Assembly (NCBI GenBank): GCA_003554585.1
Contig: PWGV01000029.1
Coordinates: forward strand, 1-59,904
DNA length: 59,904 bases
DNA from: Halobacteroidaceae bacterium
GTDB taxonomy: Bacteria; Bacillota; Halanaerobiia; B1SED10-174
Reading direction: 5' to 3'
The translations under genes and the position numbers were made by a program. The notes beneath the pieces are model-generated. The model saw only the letters and a program-made list of their open reading frames with translations. It was not told where the DNA came from and made no database searches. This document shows, in pieces, positions 21,999-58,471 of the stretch (its first letter is position 1; each line of letters opens with the position of its first letter).

Positions 21999-23369
21999 TC
22001 AATTTTTGGATTCGCTCCAGGGATATACCTCAATAGGCCCAACCACCGGATCTCCACCTTGAGCGGGGGAAGGTCCGTCTTTTGAACCCCACCAATTGCC
22101 TCTTGCATCAATTGTTATGTTATAATCCAAGGACTCCCAATCAATTTCTCCTGCCCCCAAAGCGATTTTGTTACCAGAAAAATTATTTTTTCTAATATAA
22201 GGATTGCTATTATCAGAAATAATTTCTGTTAAATCCTCGAAATAAATCCCAATCTCAGAATTGTTATGGAAATTATTTTCCTCAATTATTAGGCTTGGTT
22301 GAGTATAATCCTGGTATTTAGATAAATAAATCCCTGTTAAGGAATCGCGAAAAGTGTTTTTCTTAATAAAAATATCGGATGAATAATTCGCATCACTAGT
22401 AAAGTTTATCCCCGCCGCGACCTCTTCGAAAGTATTGTTTTCTATATAAATTTTTTCTTGTAAGATCCCCTGGAAAAGCAACCCTTCTCCCCAGACCTCA
22501 AATGTGTTATTTTTTATACTAATAGAACCATAAATATCTTTTTGAAATAAAGGGCCAGTTGCTCCAGCAAACAAATTTTGGTTTATAGAAATCAATCCAT
22601 CAATGTCCCCTTGAAATTTAATGGCCTCCTCACCTTGGAAGCTATTGTTTTCAATTAATAAGGGGAGTAATATATCATTTTCAAAAACTATTCCATTCCC
22701 AGTTTTAAAGATATTAAGTTTCAATTCTAATTCTTCTTCTGTTGGGTCTAGGAAAGTAATCGCTGTATTGTTTTCCCCTGGGTCAAAGGTGAAGCCTTTT
22801 AACTCTAAAAGCCCCCTTGTTTTTACTTCCATATTGCCTATGATTTTTGTTTTTTGTGGACCTAGTAAAGAATAAATAGAAAGAAAAGGGTGGGTTATTG
22901 GAATGTCGTTTTCAGTATAAGTCCCGGGAAAAACCCAAAGAGTACGATTGCTTCCAATTGCACTGGAAATGGAATTTTCCATTTGATCAAACCATTCTTC
23001 ATTTTGAGTATCATAAATTGCAACACCTTTATCCAATTCGAATTTCGCAGTTATTTGCATAGATTTATTCATTAATAATTCACCAGTATATTCATTAACT
23101 AAATGGCCATCCCGTCCACCCCAGCCAATGAATTTAATTCCGACGGGGAATAAAACGTCTGCGTTTAATCTTGCGATATCTCCATCATTATGAAAACTAT
23201 ATAATCCTGATTTGCCCTCAACATTTACATTAACATATCCTAAATCATGGATTTCTTTAAAAGGTTCAATAGAAATTGATAGGGAATAATCCCCGATTAC
23301 TCCACAACCCGAAAGAGAAAAGAGCAAAAGTGAAATGGCTAACAATAGAAAAAACTTTGATTTACTCAT
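21999..23369 (-). CDS. Lipoprotein with InlB-like repeat and parallel beta-helix
   Basis: The 456-residue protein has a lipoprotein signal (hydrophobic residues 7-20, lipobox LSGC with Cys22). Next comes a segment of about 60 residues resembling divergent InlB B-type repeats (ending ...MQITAKFE). From about residue 120 it is a right-handed parallel beta-helix built of repeats such as IENNSF, IKNNTFEV, IENNTFEE and IKKNTF, closing with GNWWGSKDGPSP, a typical end of NosD/pectate-lyase-like helices. No catalytic residues are obvious. It would be displayed on the outer face of the membrane and may bind or cut polysaccharide. Its coding sequence is visibly more AT-rich than neighbouring genes, which hints at acquisition. 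Confidence 0.8.
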   Translation of the reverse strand: MSKSKFFLLLAISLLLFSLSGCGVIGDYSLSISIEPFKEIHDLGYVNVNVEGKSGLYSFHNDGDIARLNADVLFPVGIKFIGWGGRDGHLVNEYTGELLMNKSMQITAKFELDKGVAIYDTQNEEWFDQMENSISSAIGSNRTLWVFPGTYTENDIPITHPFLSIYSLLGPQKTKIIGNMEVKTRGLLELKGFTFDPGENNTAITFLDPTEEELELKLNIFKTGNGIVFENDILLPLLIENNSFQGEEAIKFQGDIDGLISINQNLFAGATGPLFQKDIYGSISIKNNTFEVWGEGLLFQGILQEKIYIENNTFEEVAAGINFTSDANYSSDIFIKKNTFRDSLTGIYLSKYQDYTQPSLIIEENNFHNNSEIGIYFEDLTEIISDNSNPYIRKNNFSGNKIALGAGEIDWESLDYNITIDARGNWWGSKDGPSPAQGGDPVVGPIEVYPWSESKN

Positions 23370-38901: not shown

Positions 38902-38937
38902 AAAAAGCACCTGTCCCACGGGACAGGTGCTTTTTAA
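38902..38937. terminator. Bidirectional terminator (copy 1)
   Basis: A 15-bp stem aaaaagcacctgtcc / ggacaggtgcttttt lies between the DegV gene and the converging frameshifted gene. It closely resembles the terminator at 40391, as expected if gene and terminator were duplicated together. Confidence 0.9.
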
Positions 38938-38941
38938 ACTA

Positions 38942-40254
38942 TCAGGGGAAAAGGTCAATTCCCAGGTGGAAGGAAGGCCGAATGTCTCCCGTGGTGGGAA
39001 TGATCATGTCAACAATAGCTTCAACCGGTAGACTCAACCTCGCCAGGGAACGGGCCTGAACTCCAGCGGTAAAACGGAAAACAAAGCCCTGGGTTTCACT
39101 GTCACCCAGAGGAGTTGCTACCCGACCCCCGTTCCAATGTAACCTGTTGAAGACCTTTGGATGCCATTTAAGGCGAAAAGGATCTCATCATTGGGATCAA
39201 AATCAAGGTCGAAAGTCATTAATCCGCTGGTTAAAAGAGAGCTAAAAAATGTGCCAATGAAGGCCAGGGGGTTTGTGGGGTCAGTTGTTGCAGCGGGTGT
39301 GGGAGTGGCAGGGACATCCTGTTTCTGTCCGCTCTGGTCAAAGGAAGGAGTAAACCTGAACCCCATCCTGATGGGGAAACCCTCAGTGCCAGAGCGTTCT
39401 GTGAGCAAAGTCCCCAATCTTATCCCAAAGGCGGGAGGAACGACAACTACGGTCATGGTTGCAGGGGGACCCGAACGGGCAGTTCGGCTAATTCCCCGCA
39501 CGCTGACAGTAGTGGTTCCAGGCTGTAGGCCCTTTATTCTGCTTCCTTCATCAACGTAAACCTTGGACTCGTCAGCAGAAATGTATAAAAATGTAGGGTC
39601 TGTTAAGGGACGTCCAAGGCTGTCCAGGGCAATTGCCGATATTTGAAGGGAGGAACCGAGGTTAATCCGGAGTAGACCGGGAATAACAAAAACCTGATCT
39701 ATGGGGCTTTCAATAACCGGAATTTCCGGTGGGAATAGCTTTGTTAGTAAAGGATCGATTTGGGTGGGCACATCTGTTGTCCGGGGGGCGGTTGTCATTG
39801 CCGACCCTAGGATGCGAGGTTTGTCCCGGAAGTAATCATAACGCTGTAAACCGATAATTACAAGATTTTGCATTGGGGCAATAGAACCAGTGATTACCTG
39901 GTCAAAACCATATTGGGTTAGTAAAATTCGGGCCTGTTCAAAGGGAGGCATATCGGCTGGGAAAGGAATTACGTCTATTGTTTCCTGGAGATACATGTGA
40001 TCGTAGACTTCAAAATTACCAAATTGAATTAACCGGGAAGCAACTCCCAAGGGCATTGAACGGGAAAAGGTAATTATTTCTGAGTTTCCCAGGGTCAGGG
40101 GATCTAATAGGTTGCCTTTTTCATCAAGAATAGAGAAGTTTAGAACCGCTATTTCCTCTTTCTGGTCGGGAGTGTTTAGAACCCCGGCGCCTGTCGGTAA
40201 AGAAATTAAAAAAACCAAAAAGAAAGCCAATAGAAAGGATTTGAATTTAAGCAA
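38942..40254 (-). pseudogene. Frameshifted exported protein, paralogue of the gene at 40.4-41.75 kb
   Basis: An intact frame runs from TTG 40254 (ribosome site aaggggg) to TAG at 39118-39120, ending in GYIGTGVG. In the next frame, 60 codons (VATPLGDSETQGFVFRFTAG... to ...GIDLFP, stop at 38942-38944) continue the similarity to the paralogue exactly. One missing G in the GGG run at 39121-39123 explains it. The protein has a signal peptide, an N-terminal TolB/CsgG-like alpha/beta domain (IAVLNFSILDEKGNLLDPL), an Ig-like BIG2-type domain (about 210-280) and a beta-rich C-terminal part. Real decay, a sequencing error in the homopolymer and slippage-based expression are all possible. Confidence 0.8.
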
Positions 40255-40390
40255 AAGAAAAACCCCCTTGAATAAAACCTGGAAATAAAAGAACCAAAAT
40301 TTTTCCAAAAACTCTATTTAACATTAATTAGACCCTAAAGGTTGGGGTAAGTATAGCAAAAAGGAAAAAATCTTATTGTAACCTCGGAAT

Positions 40391-40424
40391 AAAAAAAAGC
40401 ACCTGCAGAGGCAGGTGCGGGCTT
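40391..40424 (-). terminator. Terminator of the intact paralogue (copy 2)
   Basis: gcacctgc / gcaggtgc with a 4-base loop, followed on the minus strand by eight T. Confidence 0.85.
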
Positions 40425-41750
40425 TTAAAGAGGAAAAAGGTCGAGACCAAAATTGACCCCGAAACGGAAGGATGGCCTTCCTGTTCCACTGGTCGGGAAA
40501 ATCATATCTACATTGGCTTCTACGGGCAGAGTTACCCGGGAAAAAGAGAATATTTGAGTTCCGGCTGTAAACCGGAAAACAAAACCCTTGGTTTCACTCA
40601 TCCCCAGGGGAGTAGCATATCCTACACCGGTTCCGATGAAACCACTGGAAGTCCTCTGAATTCCACTTAATGCGAATAGGAGCTCATCACTGGGATCAAA
40701 ATCCAGATCAAAAGTCATTATCCCGCTGGAAAACAGGGAACTAAAGAAGGTCCCAATGTAAGCCAGGGGGTTTGTTGGATCAGCGCTGGCGGCTTTTGAT
40801 GCTTCGGCAAGAGGATCTTTCGGTCCGCCCTGGTCAAATGATGGGGTAAATCTGAATCCCATCTTAACCGGGAAATTTCCACCTTCAAAAGCATCGGGAA
40901 TAAGAGAGCCGACCCTGATACCAAAAACGGGTGGGACAACAACAACGGTCATGGTTGCTGGAGAACCGGAGCTTGCACTCCGGCTAACTCCTCTAATGCT
41001 GACTGTAGTCGTTCCAGGCTTTAATGCTGTAATAACTCCATTATCATCCACATGAACCCGGGTTTCATCACTGGAAATATATAAGAAAGTGGGATCCGGC
41101 ACTGGACGTCCCAGACTGTCTAAAGCGAGAGGGTTAATCTTATGTGAAGAACCAAGACTGATCCTGAGCATGCTGGGGGCAACAAAAACCTGTTCAATGG
41201 AACGCTCGATAACGGGAGTTTCAGGGGGAAATAAAATTGAAAGCAGGGAATCGATCTGGGCTGGAGCATCACTTGTTCGGGGAGCTGTGGCCATGGAGGA
41301 TCCAAGTAGTCTTGGTTTGTCATCTTCCAAATCGAAACGCTGGACGCCAAGGACAACAATATTGGGCATAGAAGTAATTGACCCGGTAATTACCTGGTCG
41401 AAACCATGCTGGGTCAAGAGAATTTGAGCCTGTTCATAGGGAGACATTTCAGGAGGGAAGGGAGCAATATTTTTCTTTTCGCGCAATAACATGGGGTCAT
41501 AAACATCAAAATTCCTGTACTGGACCAGTCGGGAGGCAATTCCCATGGCCATGGTCCGAGACAGGCTTAATAGTTCGGTGTGTTGAAGATGCAAGGGATC
41601 AATTAGATTGCCCTGTTCATCAAGAACAGAAAAGTTTAAAACAGCAACTTTTTGCAGAGAATGGGAATTATCCGATGAGCTGGCAAAACCTGTTGTGGAT
41701 AGTAGGGTAGTTAGCGTAAGAAAAATGAATATAAATTTTAGTTTACCCAA
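40425..41750 (-). CDS. Exported protein with CsgG-like and Ig-like domains, unknown function
   Basis: The 441-residue protein has a signal peptide (1-23) and TTG start with ggagg. The N-terminal domain (about 30-180: VAVLNFSVLDEQGNLIDPL, IASRLVQYRNFDVYDP, GFDQVITGSI) resembles the TolB-like/CsgG fold used in outer-surface assembly proteins. Then comes a BIG2-like Ig domain (LDSLGRPVPDPTFLYISSDE, LKPGTTTVSIRGVSR; about 205-270). The C-terminal 150 residues are beta-rich, alternate polar and hydrophobic residues, and end FRFGVNFGLDLFPL, like a beta-barrel or beta-sandwich edge. The function is unknown. It lies in tandem with a frameshifted paralogue sharing most of its length. Confidence 0.78.
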   Translation of the reverse strand: MGKLKFIFIFLTLTTLLSTTGFASSSDNSHSLQKVAVLNFSVLDEQGNLIDPLHLQHTELLSLSRTMAMGIASRLVQYRNFDVYDPMLLREKKNIAPFPPEMSPYEQAQILLTQHGFDQVITGSITSMPNIVVLGVQRFDLEDDKPRLLGSSMATAPRTSDAPAQIDSLLSILFPPETPVIERSIEQVFVAPSMLRISLGSSHKINPLALDSLGRPVPDPTFLYISSDETRVHVDDNGVITALKPGTTTVSIRGVSRSASSGSPATMTVVVVPPVFGIRVGSLIPDAFEGGNFPVKMGFRFTPSFDQGGPKDPLAEASKAASADPTNPLAYIGTFFSSLFSSGIMTFDLDFDPSDELLFALSGIQRTSSGFIGTGVGYATPLGMSETKGFVFRFTAGTQIFSFSRVTLPVEANVDMIFPTSGTGRPSFRFGVNFGLDLFPL

Positions 41751-55655: not shown

Positions 55656-56051
55656 GTGCAGTTTCAGGTTGAGACCAACAAAAAAATGGAAATGATTGAT
55701 ATTACAGAACATTTAAAAAGGATGCTGCCCGATAAAGGTGAGGGGGCCCTCCTGGTTTTTGTTTCCCACACCACGGCAGGAGTTACCATCAATGAAGGGG
55801 CAGACCCTGATGTCCAGGAGGATATTCTTCAACACCTGGAAAGAATCGCCAGGGGAAGTTATCTCCACCGGGAAGGGAATGGGCCAGGCCATTTACAGGC
55901 AACCCTGGTCGGCTCCTCAGTTCTTATTCCCTTTAAGGGCAATCATCTGGACCTGGGAACCTGGCAGCGGATTTTCTTCTGTGAATTCGATGGACCTCGC
56001 TCCAGGGTAGTTCAATTTCGTCTGCTCAAAGGACTTGATTATGATGGATAA
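55656..56051 (+). CDS. YjbQ/UPF0047 family protein
   Basis: A 131-residue single-domain protein with VSHTTAGVTINEGADPDV (about 35-52), the conserved Glu/His cluster HREGNGPGHLQATLVGSS and the end FCEFDGPRSRVV, which define UPF0047. Family members show weak thiamine-phosphate synthase activity; the real role is unclear. GTG start 6 bases after ggaggggg. It overlaps the selA start by about 11 bases. Confidence 0.9.
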   Translation: MQFQVETNKKMEMIDITEHLKRMLPDKGEGALLVFVSHTTAGVTINEGADPDVQEDILQHLERIARGSYLHREGNGPGHLQATLVGSSVLIPFKGNHLDLGTWQRIFFCEFDGPRSRVVQFRLLKGLDYDG

Positions 56052-57429
56052 TTCTTTATTAAGGCAACTCCCCGGGATTGATAGCGTTTTGGGGGACCTG
56101 AAAAAACAGGGGATACCCTCTTCTCCTGGGGTCAAAAGATTGGCCCGGTTTATTGTCGATGAACTCCGCAGGGAAATCTCCCAAACCGCAGCAGAAAAAC
56201 TGCCCTGGGAAGGGGAAGAGGATTTTTTCCAGGAAGTGATTTTACGCTGTCAGGAACTTTTGAAACCCCGGCTGCAAAAAGTGGTAAACGCAACCGGGAT
56301 TATTTTGCATACCAACCTGGGCAGGGCTCCCATTGCCCCTGCGGCGATAAAAAACTTAAGGTGGACAGGGTCGGGCTACTGCAACCTGGAGTATGACCTC
56401 TCTACCGGGAAAAGAGGTTCGCGCCAGGAAATTTGTGACTTTCTTTTGTCCCTCCTGACTGGAGCCGAAAAAGCACTTATTGTTAATAATAACGCTGCTG
56501 CCGTTTTACTGGTTCTTGATACCCTGGCTCGGGATGGAGAAGCAATAATATCCCGAGGTGAACTGGTCGAAATCGGTGGTTCTTTCCGGGTTCCAGAAGT
56601 TATGTCCAAAGGAGGGGTTTGCCTGCGGGAGGTTGGCACTACTAACAGAACCCGCCTGGAGGACTATGAGGAGGCCATAGGAGAGCATACGAAACTTTTA
56701 ATGAAAGTCCACCCATCCAACTATCGGATCAGTGGATTTACAGAAGAAGTTGGGGTTGAAGAACTGGGATCGCTGGCCCAAAAGTATAACCTTATTTCTT
56801 ATTATGACCTGGGAAGCGGTTCTCTCTGGCCCTTAACCAGCGAACCCTCTTTAGATGAAATTACTTCGGGGAAGTTAGATTTAGTTTCTTTTAGCGGGGA
56901 TAAGCTTTTGGGAGGTGCACAGGCGGGAATTATCCTGGGCCGAAAGGATTTAATTGAGAAAATGGGCCGAAACAATTTGTTGAGAGCTTTAAGGATTGAC
57001 AAGCTTTCCCTTGCTGCCCTTGAGGCTACTTTGCGCCATTACCTGATGGACCAGCCCGATTTTATCCCCGCCTATAAAATGTTTCAGATGACAGAAGAAG
57101 AACTTCTTGCAAGAACAGAAGAAATTCATGCTTGTCTTGAGGAGAAAATTCCCTCCGAGTTTAAATTATCCATCGGTGAGGGCACTTCATTTAGTGGTGG
57201 AGGGACACTTCCCCAGGAGGCAATTCCGGGCCCTGTGTTACATCTGCAGGGTAACAATTCGGAATTAAGCCAAATTCATCAAAAATTAAGGGAAGCTGAA
57301 ATTCCTGTAATTGCAAGTATTTTTAAAGGAAAAATTGAAATTAACCTGCGAACAGTTTTTCCAGAGGAAGAAGACATCCTAAAAACAGAACTAGCCAGGA
57401 TTGCGCAGGAGGTGAGGGAAAGTGAATGA
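56041..57429 (+). CDS. selA: L-seryl-tRNA(Sec) selenium transferase SelA
   Basis: SelA is a PLP enzyme that converts Ser-tRNA(Sec) to Sec-tRNA(Sec) with selenophosphate. The protein of about 462 residues has the N-terminal LRQLPGIDSVL, the core KVVNATGIILHTNLGRAPI, the arginine loop SRGELVEIGGSFR, and the PLP lysine in SFSGDKLLGGAQAG (about Lys288). ATG 56041 and 56044 follow aaagga; TTG 56035 is less likely. Its stop overlaps the GTG start of selD. Together with the tRNA-Sec at 2.5 kb this shows the organism decodes UGA as selenocysteine. Confidence 0.95.
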   Translation: MMDNSLLRQLPGIDSVLGDLKKQGIPSSPGVKRLARFIVDELRREISQTAAEKLPWEGEEDFFQEVILRCQELLKPRLQKVVNATGIILHTNLGRAPIAPAAIKNLRWTGSGYCNLEYDLSTGKRGSRQEICDFLLSLLTGAEKALIVNNNAAAVLLVLDTLARDGEAIISRGELVEIGGSFRVPEVMSKGGVCLREVGTTNRTRLEDYEEAIGEHTKLLMKVHPSNYRISGFTEEVGVEELGSLAQKYNLISYYDLGSGSLWPLTSEPSLDEITSGKLDLVSFSGDKLLGGAQAGIILGRKDLIEKMGRNNLLRALRIDKLSLAALEATLRHYLMDQPDFIPAYKMFQMTEEELLARTEEIHACLEEKIPSEFKLSIGEGTSFSGGGTLPQEAIPGPVLHLQGNNSELSQIHQKLREAEIPVIASIFKGKIEINLRTVFPEEEDILKTELARIAQEVRESE

Positions 57430-58471
57430 TCGGGAAAAGGTTCGTCTGACAAGTTTTTCGCAAAAAGCCGGCTGAGGATGTAAAATGGGGCCGGAGGCCC
57501 TGAAAACTGTTCTTTCCCAGTTGCCTCAACCGAAATCTCGGAAGGAAGTCCTCGTAGGCCTGGATATTATTGATGATGCGGGGGTTTACCAGATTAATGA
57601 GGACCAGGCCCTGGTCCAGACAATTGATTTTTTCACCCCGATCGTGGATGACGGACGAGATTTTGGTAGAATAGCTGCTGCAAATGCTCTCAGTGATCTT
57701 TATGCAATGGGAGCAGAGCCTATTACTGCGCTCAATGTTGTGGGCTTTCCTTCCCAAAAAATTCCCCTGGAAATCCTGGGTGAAATTTTAAGAGGGGGGC
57801 AGGAAAAAGTCGAGGAAGCTGGAGCTGTTCTTATTGGTGGTCATACAGTAGATGATGATGAGCCGAAATACGGGCTTTCTGCAACCGGGTTAATCCACCC
57901 CCAAAGGATAATTAAAAAAGGAGGCGCTCGCCCGGGGGATGTGCTAGTAATGACCAAACCCATCGGAGCAGGGATTCTGACAACAGGAGTAAAAGGAGAA
58001 ATGGTCGAGGAAAAAGATACCCAGAATGCTGTAGAAATTATGGCTAAATTAAATAAAGCTGGAGCCAAGTGTTTGAATTTTGACGTAGTAAACGCAATGA
58101 CAGATATCACCGGGTTTGGACTTATGGGACACCTTTTCGAGATGATGCAGGCCAGTGGAACCGGGGCCCGGTTAAAAATTAGCTCAAATTGGTTCATTGA
58201 CGGCAGTGAGGTTCTAGCTCAAAAAGGAGTGGTTCCCGGCGGAACGCTACGAAATATTAAATTTTTGGAAAACAACGTTAACTGGAATAATGCCCCCCGC
58301 CACCATAAATTTTTGCTCTGCGATGCAATGACCTCGGGTGGATTACTGGCAGCTGTTAAACCCGATAAAGTGGGCAGGGTAATAAAGGAACTGGAAAAGG
58401 ATGCTGATGTTCCGTCTTCAATTATAATTGGCGAGGTAATTTCGGGAGAACCAATTATCGAGGTATTTTAA
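57422..58471 (+). CDS. selD: Selenide, water dikinase SelD, itself a selenoprotein (TGA at codon 18)
   Basis: SelD makes selenophosphate from selenide and ATP. The full frame starts at GTG 57422, overlapping the selA stop, and reads VNDREKVRLTSFSQKAG-TGA-GCK-MGPEAL. The TGA at 57473-57475 falls exactly where SelD has its catalytic Cys or Sec (xGxGCK; Sec18, with Lys21 next). Automatic calling would start at ATG 57485 and lose the active site. A hairpin 11 bases after the TGA fits a bacterial SECIS. The ATP-binding part follows: VQTIDFFTPIVDDGRDFGRIAAANALSD-like and GGHTVDDDEPKYGLSATG-like segments. About 349 residues with Sec. Confidence 0.93.
57487..57501 (+). promoter_or_regulatory. Bacterial SECIS hairpin in selD
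   Basis: ggggcc / ggccct, a 6-bp stem with loop GGA, begins 11 bases after the in-frame TGA, so its tip is about 18-20 bases downstream. This spacing and the G in the apical loop suit recognition by SelB. Verified only by eye. Confidence 0.6.

Follow-up and report, generated by a model that had tools for sequence, protein, structure and literature searches.

The N-terminal alpha/beta domain of the proteins considered here appears to share the fold of the CsgG/PelC/LpoB/TolB-N group, which is among the closest described systems. CsgG carries a lipobox cysteine in a lipoprotein signal and forms a nonamer with a shared beta-barrel, and CsgG, PelC, and LpoB all use lipid anchors. PelC, CsgG, and FlgT form rings. 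TolB, which is part of the Tol-Pal system, has a C-terminal beta-propeller, and OmpA consists of an N-terminal barrel followed by a C-terminal OmpA-type domain. BIG2 domains are often carried by cell-surface proteins. The Halobacteroidaceae, to which the genome analysed here belongs, are within the Halanaerobiales. The outer membranes of Firmicutes have been argued to be ancestral, and outer-membrane markers have been reported from both Limnochordia and Halanaerobiales, in the part of the published account that is drawn on here (PMC11456536).

The window, by which is meant the whole 59,904 nucleotide stretch analysed (contig PWGV01000029.1), contains two tandem genes on the minus strand. Copy A (40425..41750) is complete, encoding 441 aa and a stop, with a TTG start preceded by GGAGG. 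Copy B (38942..40254) has the same architecture and a TTG start at 40254, but in this assembly its reading frame is broken at 39118, where it stops with TAG (39118-39120), and the remainder (38945-39121) is in another frame. Over residues 10-378 the two copies share 62% identity, and a search of the same genome found no third copy. A sequence-only reading had described this as a duplicated gene, and the tandem pair is indeed present, although copy B is not intact in this genome. In the sister genomes G003 and G002 both copies are intact and in the same order as in the window. Against G003, the DNA of the window copy B has a one-base gap at the frame break and a 9-base gap near its end, the latter falling in the last predicted strand. 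In a further sister, G004, copy A is intact and copy B has lost a large internal part in frame, which leaves an open frame of 254 aa; G001 has only a fragment, at a contig end. It looks as if copy B is decaying in the window genome, the damage to it being either recent or an error of assembly.

Terminator-like hairpins, both on the minus strand, are found 3' of copy B (38902..38935) and 3' of copy A (40399..40418) and have the outer stem GCACCTG/CAGGTGC in common. The similarity of the two terminators, from which it had been proposed that gene and terminator were duplicated together, is therefore real in the window. The stem 3' of copy A recurs in all three of the sister loci examined, whereas that 3' of copy B is altered in G003 (TCACCTG) and differs in G002 and G004. 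That gene and terminator were duplicated as a unit is not supported, since the copy B stem varies among the sisters.

The order of signal peptide, TolB/CsgG-type domain, BIG2-like domain, and beta-rich C-terminus proposed for both proteins is borne out by separate hhalign, Pfam, and structure tests. Both copies share this architecture and the DLFP end, which corresponds to the last predicted barrel strand. The signal peptide of copy A, identified by eye at approximately residues 1-24 (41679..41750, minus strand), is without a lipobox. Among the 28 family rows, two of which are without the N-terminus, no lipobox is present at the cleavage site in any that reaches it; the lipobox pattern occurs only in L064, at residues 2-5 counted from a script-chosen start. 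The mature chains are nearly cysteine-free.

The TolB-N/CsgG/PelC-type domain follows at residues 31-178 of copy A (41217..41660, minus strand), as located by hhalign and VIA-align. By hhalign, the N-terminal domain (84 columns, residues 33-128) scored 86.7% against an alignment of 13 proteins from the phylum that carry a CsgG domain; the reversed alignment scored 0.1%, 40 column-shuffled decoys 1.0% or less, and the middle and C-terminal parts of the protein 0.3% and 0.1%. In VIA-align, the model of this domain matched TolB (Z 12.0), PelC (10.3), FlgT (10.0), and CsgG (4q79; Z 9.5 over 119 residues, 4.1 Å, 13% identity), in a comparison where unrelated folds score Z 7-8 and with a model pLDDT of only 35-74. 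Foldseek returned six matches to it at E 0.001 or better, TolB being first (2.1e-4). The Pfam CsgG family (PF03783) matched just one of the 28 members, at E 0.085 and under the cut-off, and the homologue in genome G358 reached 14 bits where the cut-off is 20.8. On the profile and model comparisons, the N-terminal domain would appear to have a CsgG-type fold.

Other CsgG-like proteins are present in the sister genomes. One, on the minus strand at 751-2040 of locus L110 in G002, is 430 aa long; its N-terminal part scored 96.0% against CsgG by hhalign, with a weak Pfam CsgG match (0.2). It is not a close relative of the family, against which its N-terminal part scored 0.1% and its tail 8.2%, and the tail, ending RFSVGLGF, has by eye the appearance of an outer-membrane barrel. 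Another, at 1288-2607 of L102 in G003, is a CsgG-domain protein of 439 aa that scores above the Pfam cut-off, with a C-terminal part assigned to no family, and has a relative, L103, in G002.

The BIG2-like Ig domain of copy A occupies residues 180-272 (40935..41213, minus strand) and was recognised through Pfam Big_2 (PF02368), which matches 26 of the 28 members (best E 1e-8), the window protein itself at E 0.007, below the curated cut-off. In sequence searches of the PDB the 28-row profile matched an Ig-type entry (0.0021) and FlgT (0.36-0.51), and a 7-row profile had no match. As in other BIG2-domain proteins there is a BIG2-like domain, but here it is in single copy between two other domains. 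Matches to PHROGs (best 9.6e-8, from a homologue) are confined to the Ig-like stretch and were set aside.

The C-terminal module of copy A, residues 273-441 ending LDLFPL (40428..40934, minus strand), is predicted to be an outer-membrane barrel on the basis of AF2, Foldseek, VIA-align, and face-resolved conservation. The full-length AF2 model is poor (pLDDT 40), particularly beyond approximately residue 150-180, and does not resolve the C-terminal half; the module was therefore folded alone. The result has eight strands plus helices (pLDDT 60, pTM 0.55), from seven sequences of one genus, with three of the five models below pLDDT 42. The best 27 rows in VIA-align (Z 15.8-10.7) consist entirely of outer-membrane barrels and designed transmembrane barrels, among them 9nh2, NspA, OprF, OmpW, OmpA, and PagL, with the OmpA, NspA, OprF, and OmpW barrels at Z 13-16. 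Foldseek gave no match to the module at E 0.001 or better, its best being PagL (1.3e-3, TMq 0.46). Since PagL heads the Foldseek matches, a PagL-like enzyme was weighed as an alternative but rejected, as none of the module's conserved polar residues is a histidine.

Strongly beta-periodic positions make up 19% of the C-terminal module, against 4 +/- 3% in its own shuffles, 10% of the Ig-like part (7 +/- 5%), and 1% of the N-terminal domain (5 +/- 3%), on a hydrophobicity scale in which the values of Tyr and Trp were raised by hand. The strands have a variable hydrophobic face (mean entropy 1.21 bits, 48 sites) and, opposite it, a conserved one (0.63 bits, 51 sites; p ~1e-4), with some strand ends extended in this analysis past those of the AF2 model. 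The near-invariant residues of the conserved face, R279, R300, D348, D350, R366, R393, Q399, E411, D415, R429, and D437, belong to a set of charged and small residues. Seven of the eight strands follow this pattern; strand 4 runs contrary to it, with the invariant Q365 on its hydrophobic face. Between strands 2 and 3 there is a conserved NPL and helix (residues 326-343; 40722..40775, minus strand), picked out by entropy and in the model, which has the lowest entropy of any inter-strand segment (0.88 bits) and lies in a segment of 32-45 residues. Of the putative outer segments in the 25 long rows, three span 6-10 residues and the fourth is a short turn. The final strand terminates in LFPL, LFP, LFQ, or LYP, and the textbook terminal aromatic is absent. 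The module is best read as an eight-stranded outer-membrane barrel, modelled at middling confidence.

Whether any named family covers the whole protein was answered in the negative by the sequence-only reading, and on this point it stands. Scans of all 28 members found only Ig-type families and weak scattered matches in Pfam, and only weak matches in NCBIfam, the best being 0.0033 to a YidC model in four members. A literature search found no paper describing this architecture. The family is real and conserved, has no Pfam or NCBIfam model spanning its full length, and combines known folds in an order that is new. Unlike the CsgG/PelC/LpoB/TolB group, it has no lipobox, no beta-propeller (no propeller family is among the Pfam matches of the 28 members), an added Ig-like domain, and a predicted C-terminal barrel of its own, which in the model appears complete in one chain where that of CsgG is shared by the nonamer. 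The predicted eight strands and the conserved charged face are as in OmpA-TM, NspA, OprF-N, OmpX, and PagL, with identities of 4-15% to small outer-membrane barrels in the structural alignments shown. Unlike in these, the predicted barrel is C-terminal after two domains, with short outer segments and a conserved, putatively inward-facing helix. The order is the reverse of that in OmpA, and no OmpA-type family was matched. OmpM of diderm Firmicutes shares the plan of periplasmic N-terminal module and C-terminal barrel, as given in the part of the source cited here (PMC10628300), but it combines SLH with a porin where this family combines TolB/CsgG-type and Ig-like domains with a predicted small barrel; no SLH family is among the Pfam matches of the 28 members.

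Within the class of the window, the family is present in five of 59 genomes, all of the same genus and one of them (G001) with a fragment. Among 398 genomes sampled from the phylum, five (G000, G119, G157, G358, and G378) have matches that extend beyond BIG2, that in G378 being to the C-terminal part only. The class of G358, which is probably Limnochordia, has the family in 24 of 72 genomes, 20 with full-length homologues and four with partial ones (G378, G446 in two pieces, G471, and G478), including 18 of the 22 genomes of a single family, f150. The stretch of the G358 genome covered here is 71.7% GC. Matches limited to approximately residues 165-305 were put down to BIG2 domains in other proteins and excluded from the counts, which left out 8/32 genomes in the class of G358, 3/8 in that of the window, and 8/13 in the 398-genome sample. 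Four weak matches of the first profile in the class of the window were rejected; those in G012 and G006 are sequences without the architecture, and those in G049 and G053 cover only residues 1-53 and 3-39. None of the four returned with the larger profile at E 0.01. The family profile searches were kept within the phylum of the window, and of 74 pattern matches in viral contigs none is a relative.

In a tree of 25 of the 28 rows, from which the broken copy B of the window was left out and in which the root was set by hand and the backbone is unresolved, the six rows of the genus form one group (97/99), within which copies A (100/100) and copies B (100/98) are separate. The duplication therefore took place before G002 and G003 diverged. 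The window genus might have acquired the family by lateral transfer. Between the window and G003, copy A has a dN/dS of 0.045 and copy B, in the part still in frame, one of 0.067; the neighbouring DegV and methyltransferase genes have 0.051 and 0.173. Purifying selection has maintained both copies, and their conservation is far beyond chance.

These two neighbours, which we take from their translations to be DegV and methyltransferase genes, flank the pair in the window genus, both on the opposite strand, and it forms an operon with neither. In six f150 loci (L083, L085-L088, and L090) a DUF2207 membrane protein is encoded directly upstream of the homologue, and in most of these a CZB-domain chemoreceptor is downstream, one representative of each having been named by Pfam. 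No stable gene partner was found across the lineages, and none is claimed, because the f150 neighbours are not kept elsewhere. Further away in the window there is a tRNA gene for selenocysteine (2499-2593), and open reading frames within 56035-58471 presumably correspond to selA and selD, which they resemble. A 456 aa open reading frame on the minus strand (21999-23369) carries a lipobox-like LSGC signal as well as repeated segments rich in N, and by eye resembles a beta-helix lipoprotein.

It had been suggested that the proteins might form an outer-membrane structure if the cell has such a membrane, and this suggestion is strengthened. The window genome has Omp85, as do 30 of the 31 genomes searched alongside it and 70 of the 72 genomes of the G358 class, including 23 of the 24 with homologues; the two homologue-bearing genomes in which the search did not find it are G480 and G001. 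The C-terminal module, for its part, models as an outer-membrane barrel. The domains, the barrel-like model, the lack of a lipobox, the outer-membrane machinery, and the purifying selection are all computed observations, and an outer-membrane location is likely. The function we infer is that of an integral outer-membrane protein, in which a barrel anchor displays a periplasmic TolB/CsgG-type docking domain and an Ig-like domain, and this is probably, though by no means certainly, correct. The protein would be exported by Sec, and Omp85/BAM would fold its last ~170 residues into a small closed eight-stranded barrel, leaving the TolB-N/CsgG/PelC-type and Ig-like domains suspended in the periplasm. 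Given that the strand number is even and the N-terminus periplasmic, the short segments would be outside and the NPL-helix segment periplasmic, which suggests that the barrel is an anchor whose working side is the periplasm. The TolB/CsgG-type domain would there most probably dock or scaffold another envelope component, the barrel standing in for the lipid anchor of CsgG, PelC, and LpoB. Lol and Pal are reported to be restricted to Gracilicutes, leaving out the Firmicutes, in the portion of the source used here (PMC10628300); if Lol lies only outside the diderm Firmicutes branch, a barrel would be a natural substitute anchor, as in OmpM.

That PelC, CsgG, and FlgT share the N-terminal fold, with 'dodecamer' and 'ring' in PDB titles, would also suit a large ring of N-terminal domains, the barrels surrounding or lining a portal for export of polysaccharide or fibre. 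Each subunit, however, seems in the model to own a complete eight-stranded barrel with a charged interior and would therefore add no strands to a shared pore, and inspection of the neighbours by eye revealed no curli or polysaccharide-export gene, so that such a portal is improbable. Equally slight is the chance that the periplasmic domains bind peptidoglycan, making the protein an outer-membrane tether parallel to OmpM. TolB belongs to the Tol-Pal system, and OmpM has the same order of periplasmic N-terminus and C-terminal barrel, according to the part of its description cited here (PMC10628300), but no SLH, OmpA-type, or LysM family is among the Pfam matches of the 28 members, and presence in only 24 of 72 genomes of the G358 class would be odd for a general tether.

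The C-terminal module might instead be a soluble beta-barrel or sandwich, in a protein that is periplasmic or, as is common for those with BIG2 domains, at the cell surface. Soluble avidins do come next in VIA-align at Z 10.6, but the 27 membrane barrels rank ahead of them, the lowest tied with the first avidin. A soluble barrel would have a conserved hydrophobic core, and here it is the charged face that is conserved and the hydrophobic face that varies, which argues for a membrane barrel and makes a soluble module unlikely. The barrel-anchored docking protein is thus the reading retained here. It is conceivable, if rather doubtful, that in outer-membrane bacteria without Lol periplasmic domains of the CsgG/PelC/LpoB type have repeatedly been moved onto small barrels, with the protein in L110 as a second case.

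Few outer-membrane proteins of the Firmicutes have been characterised. The family described here is under selection, is common to two Omp85-bearing lineages, and has a domain order found in no family model searched. It makes testable how domains that are usually lipidated stay at the outer membrane where no Lol pathway has been reported.
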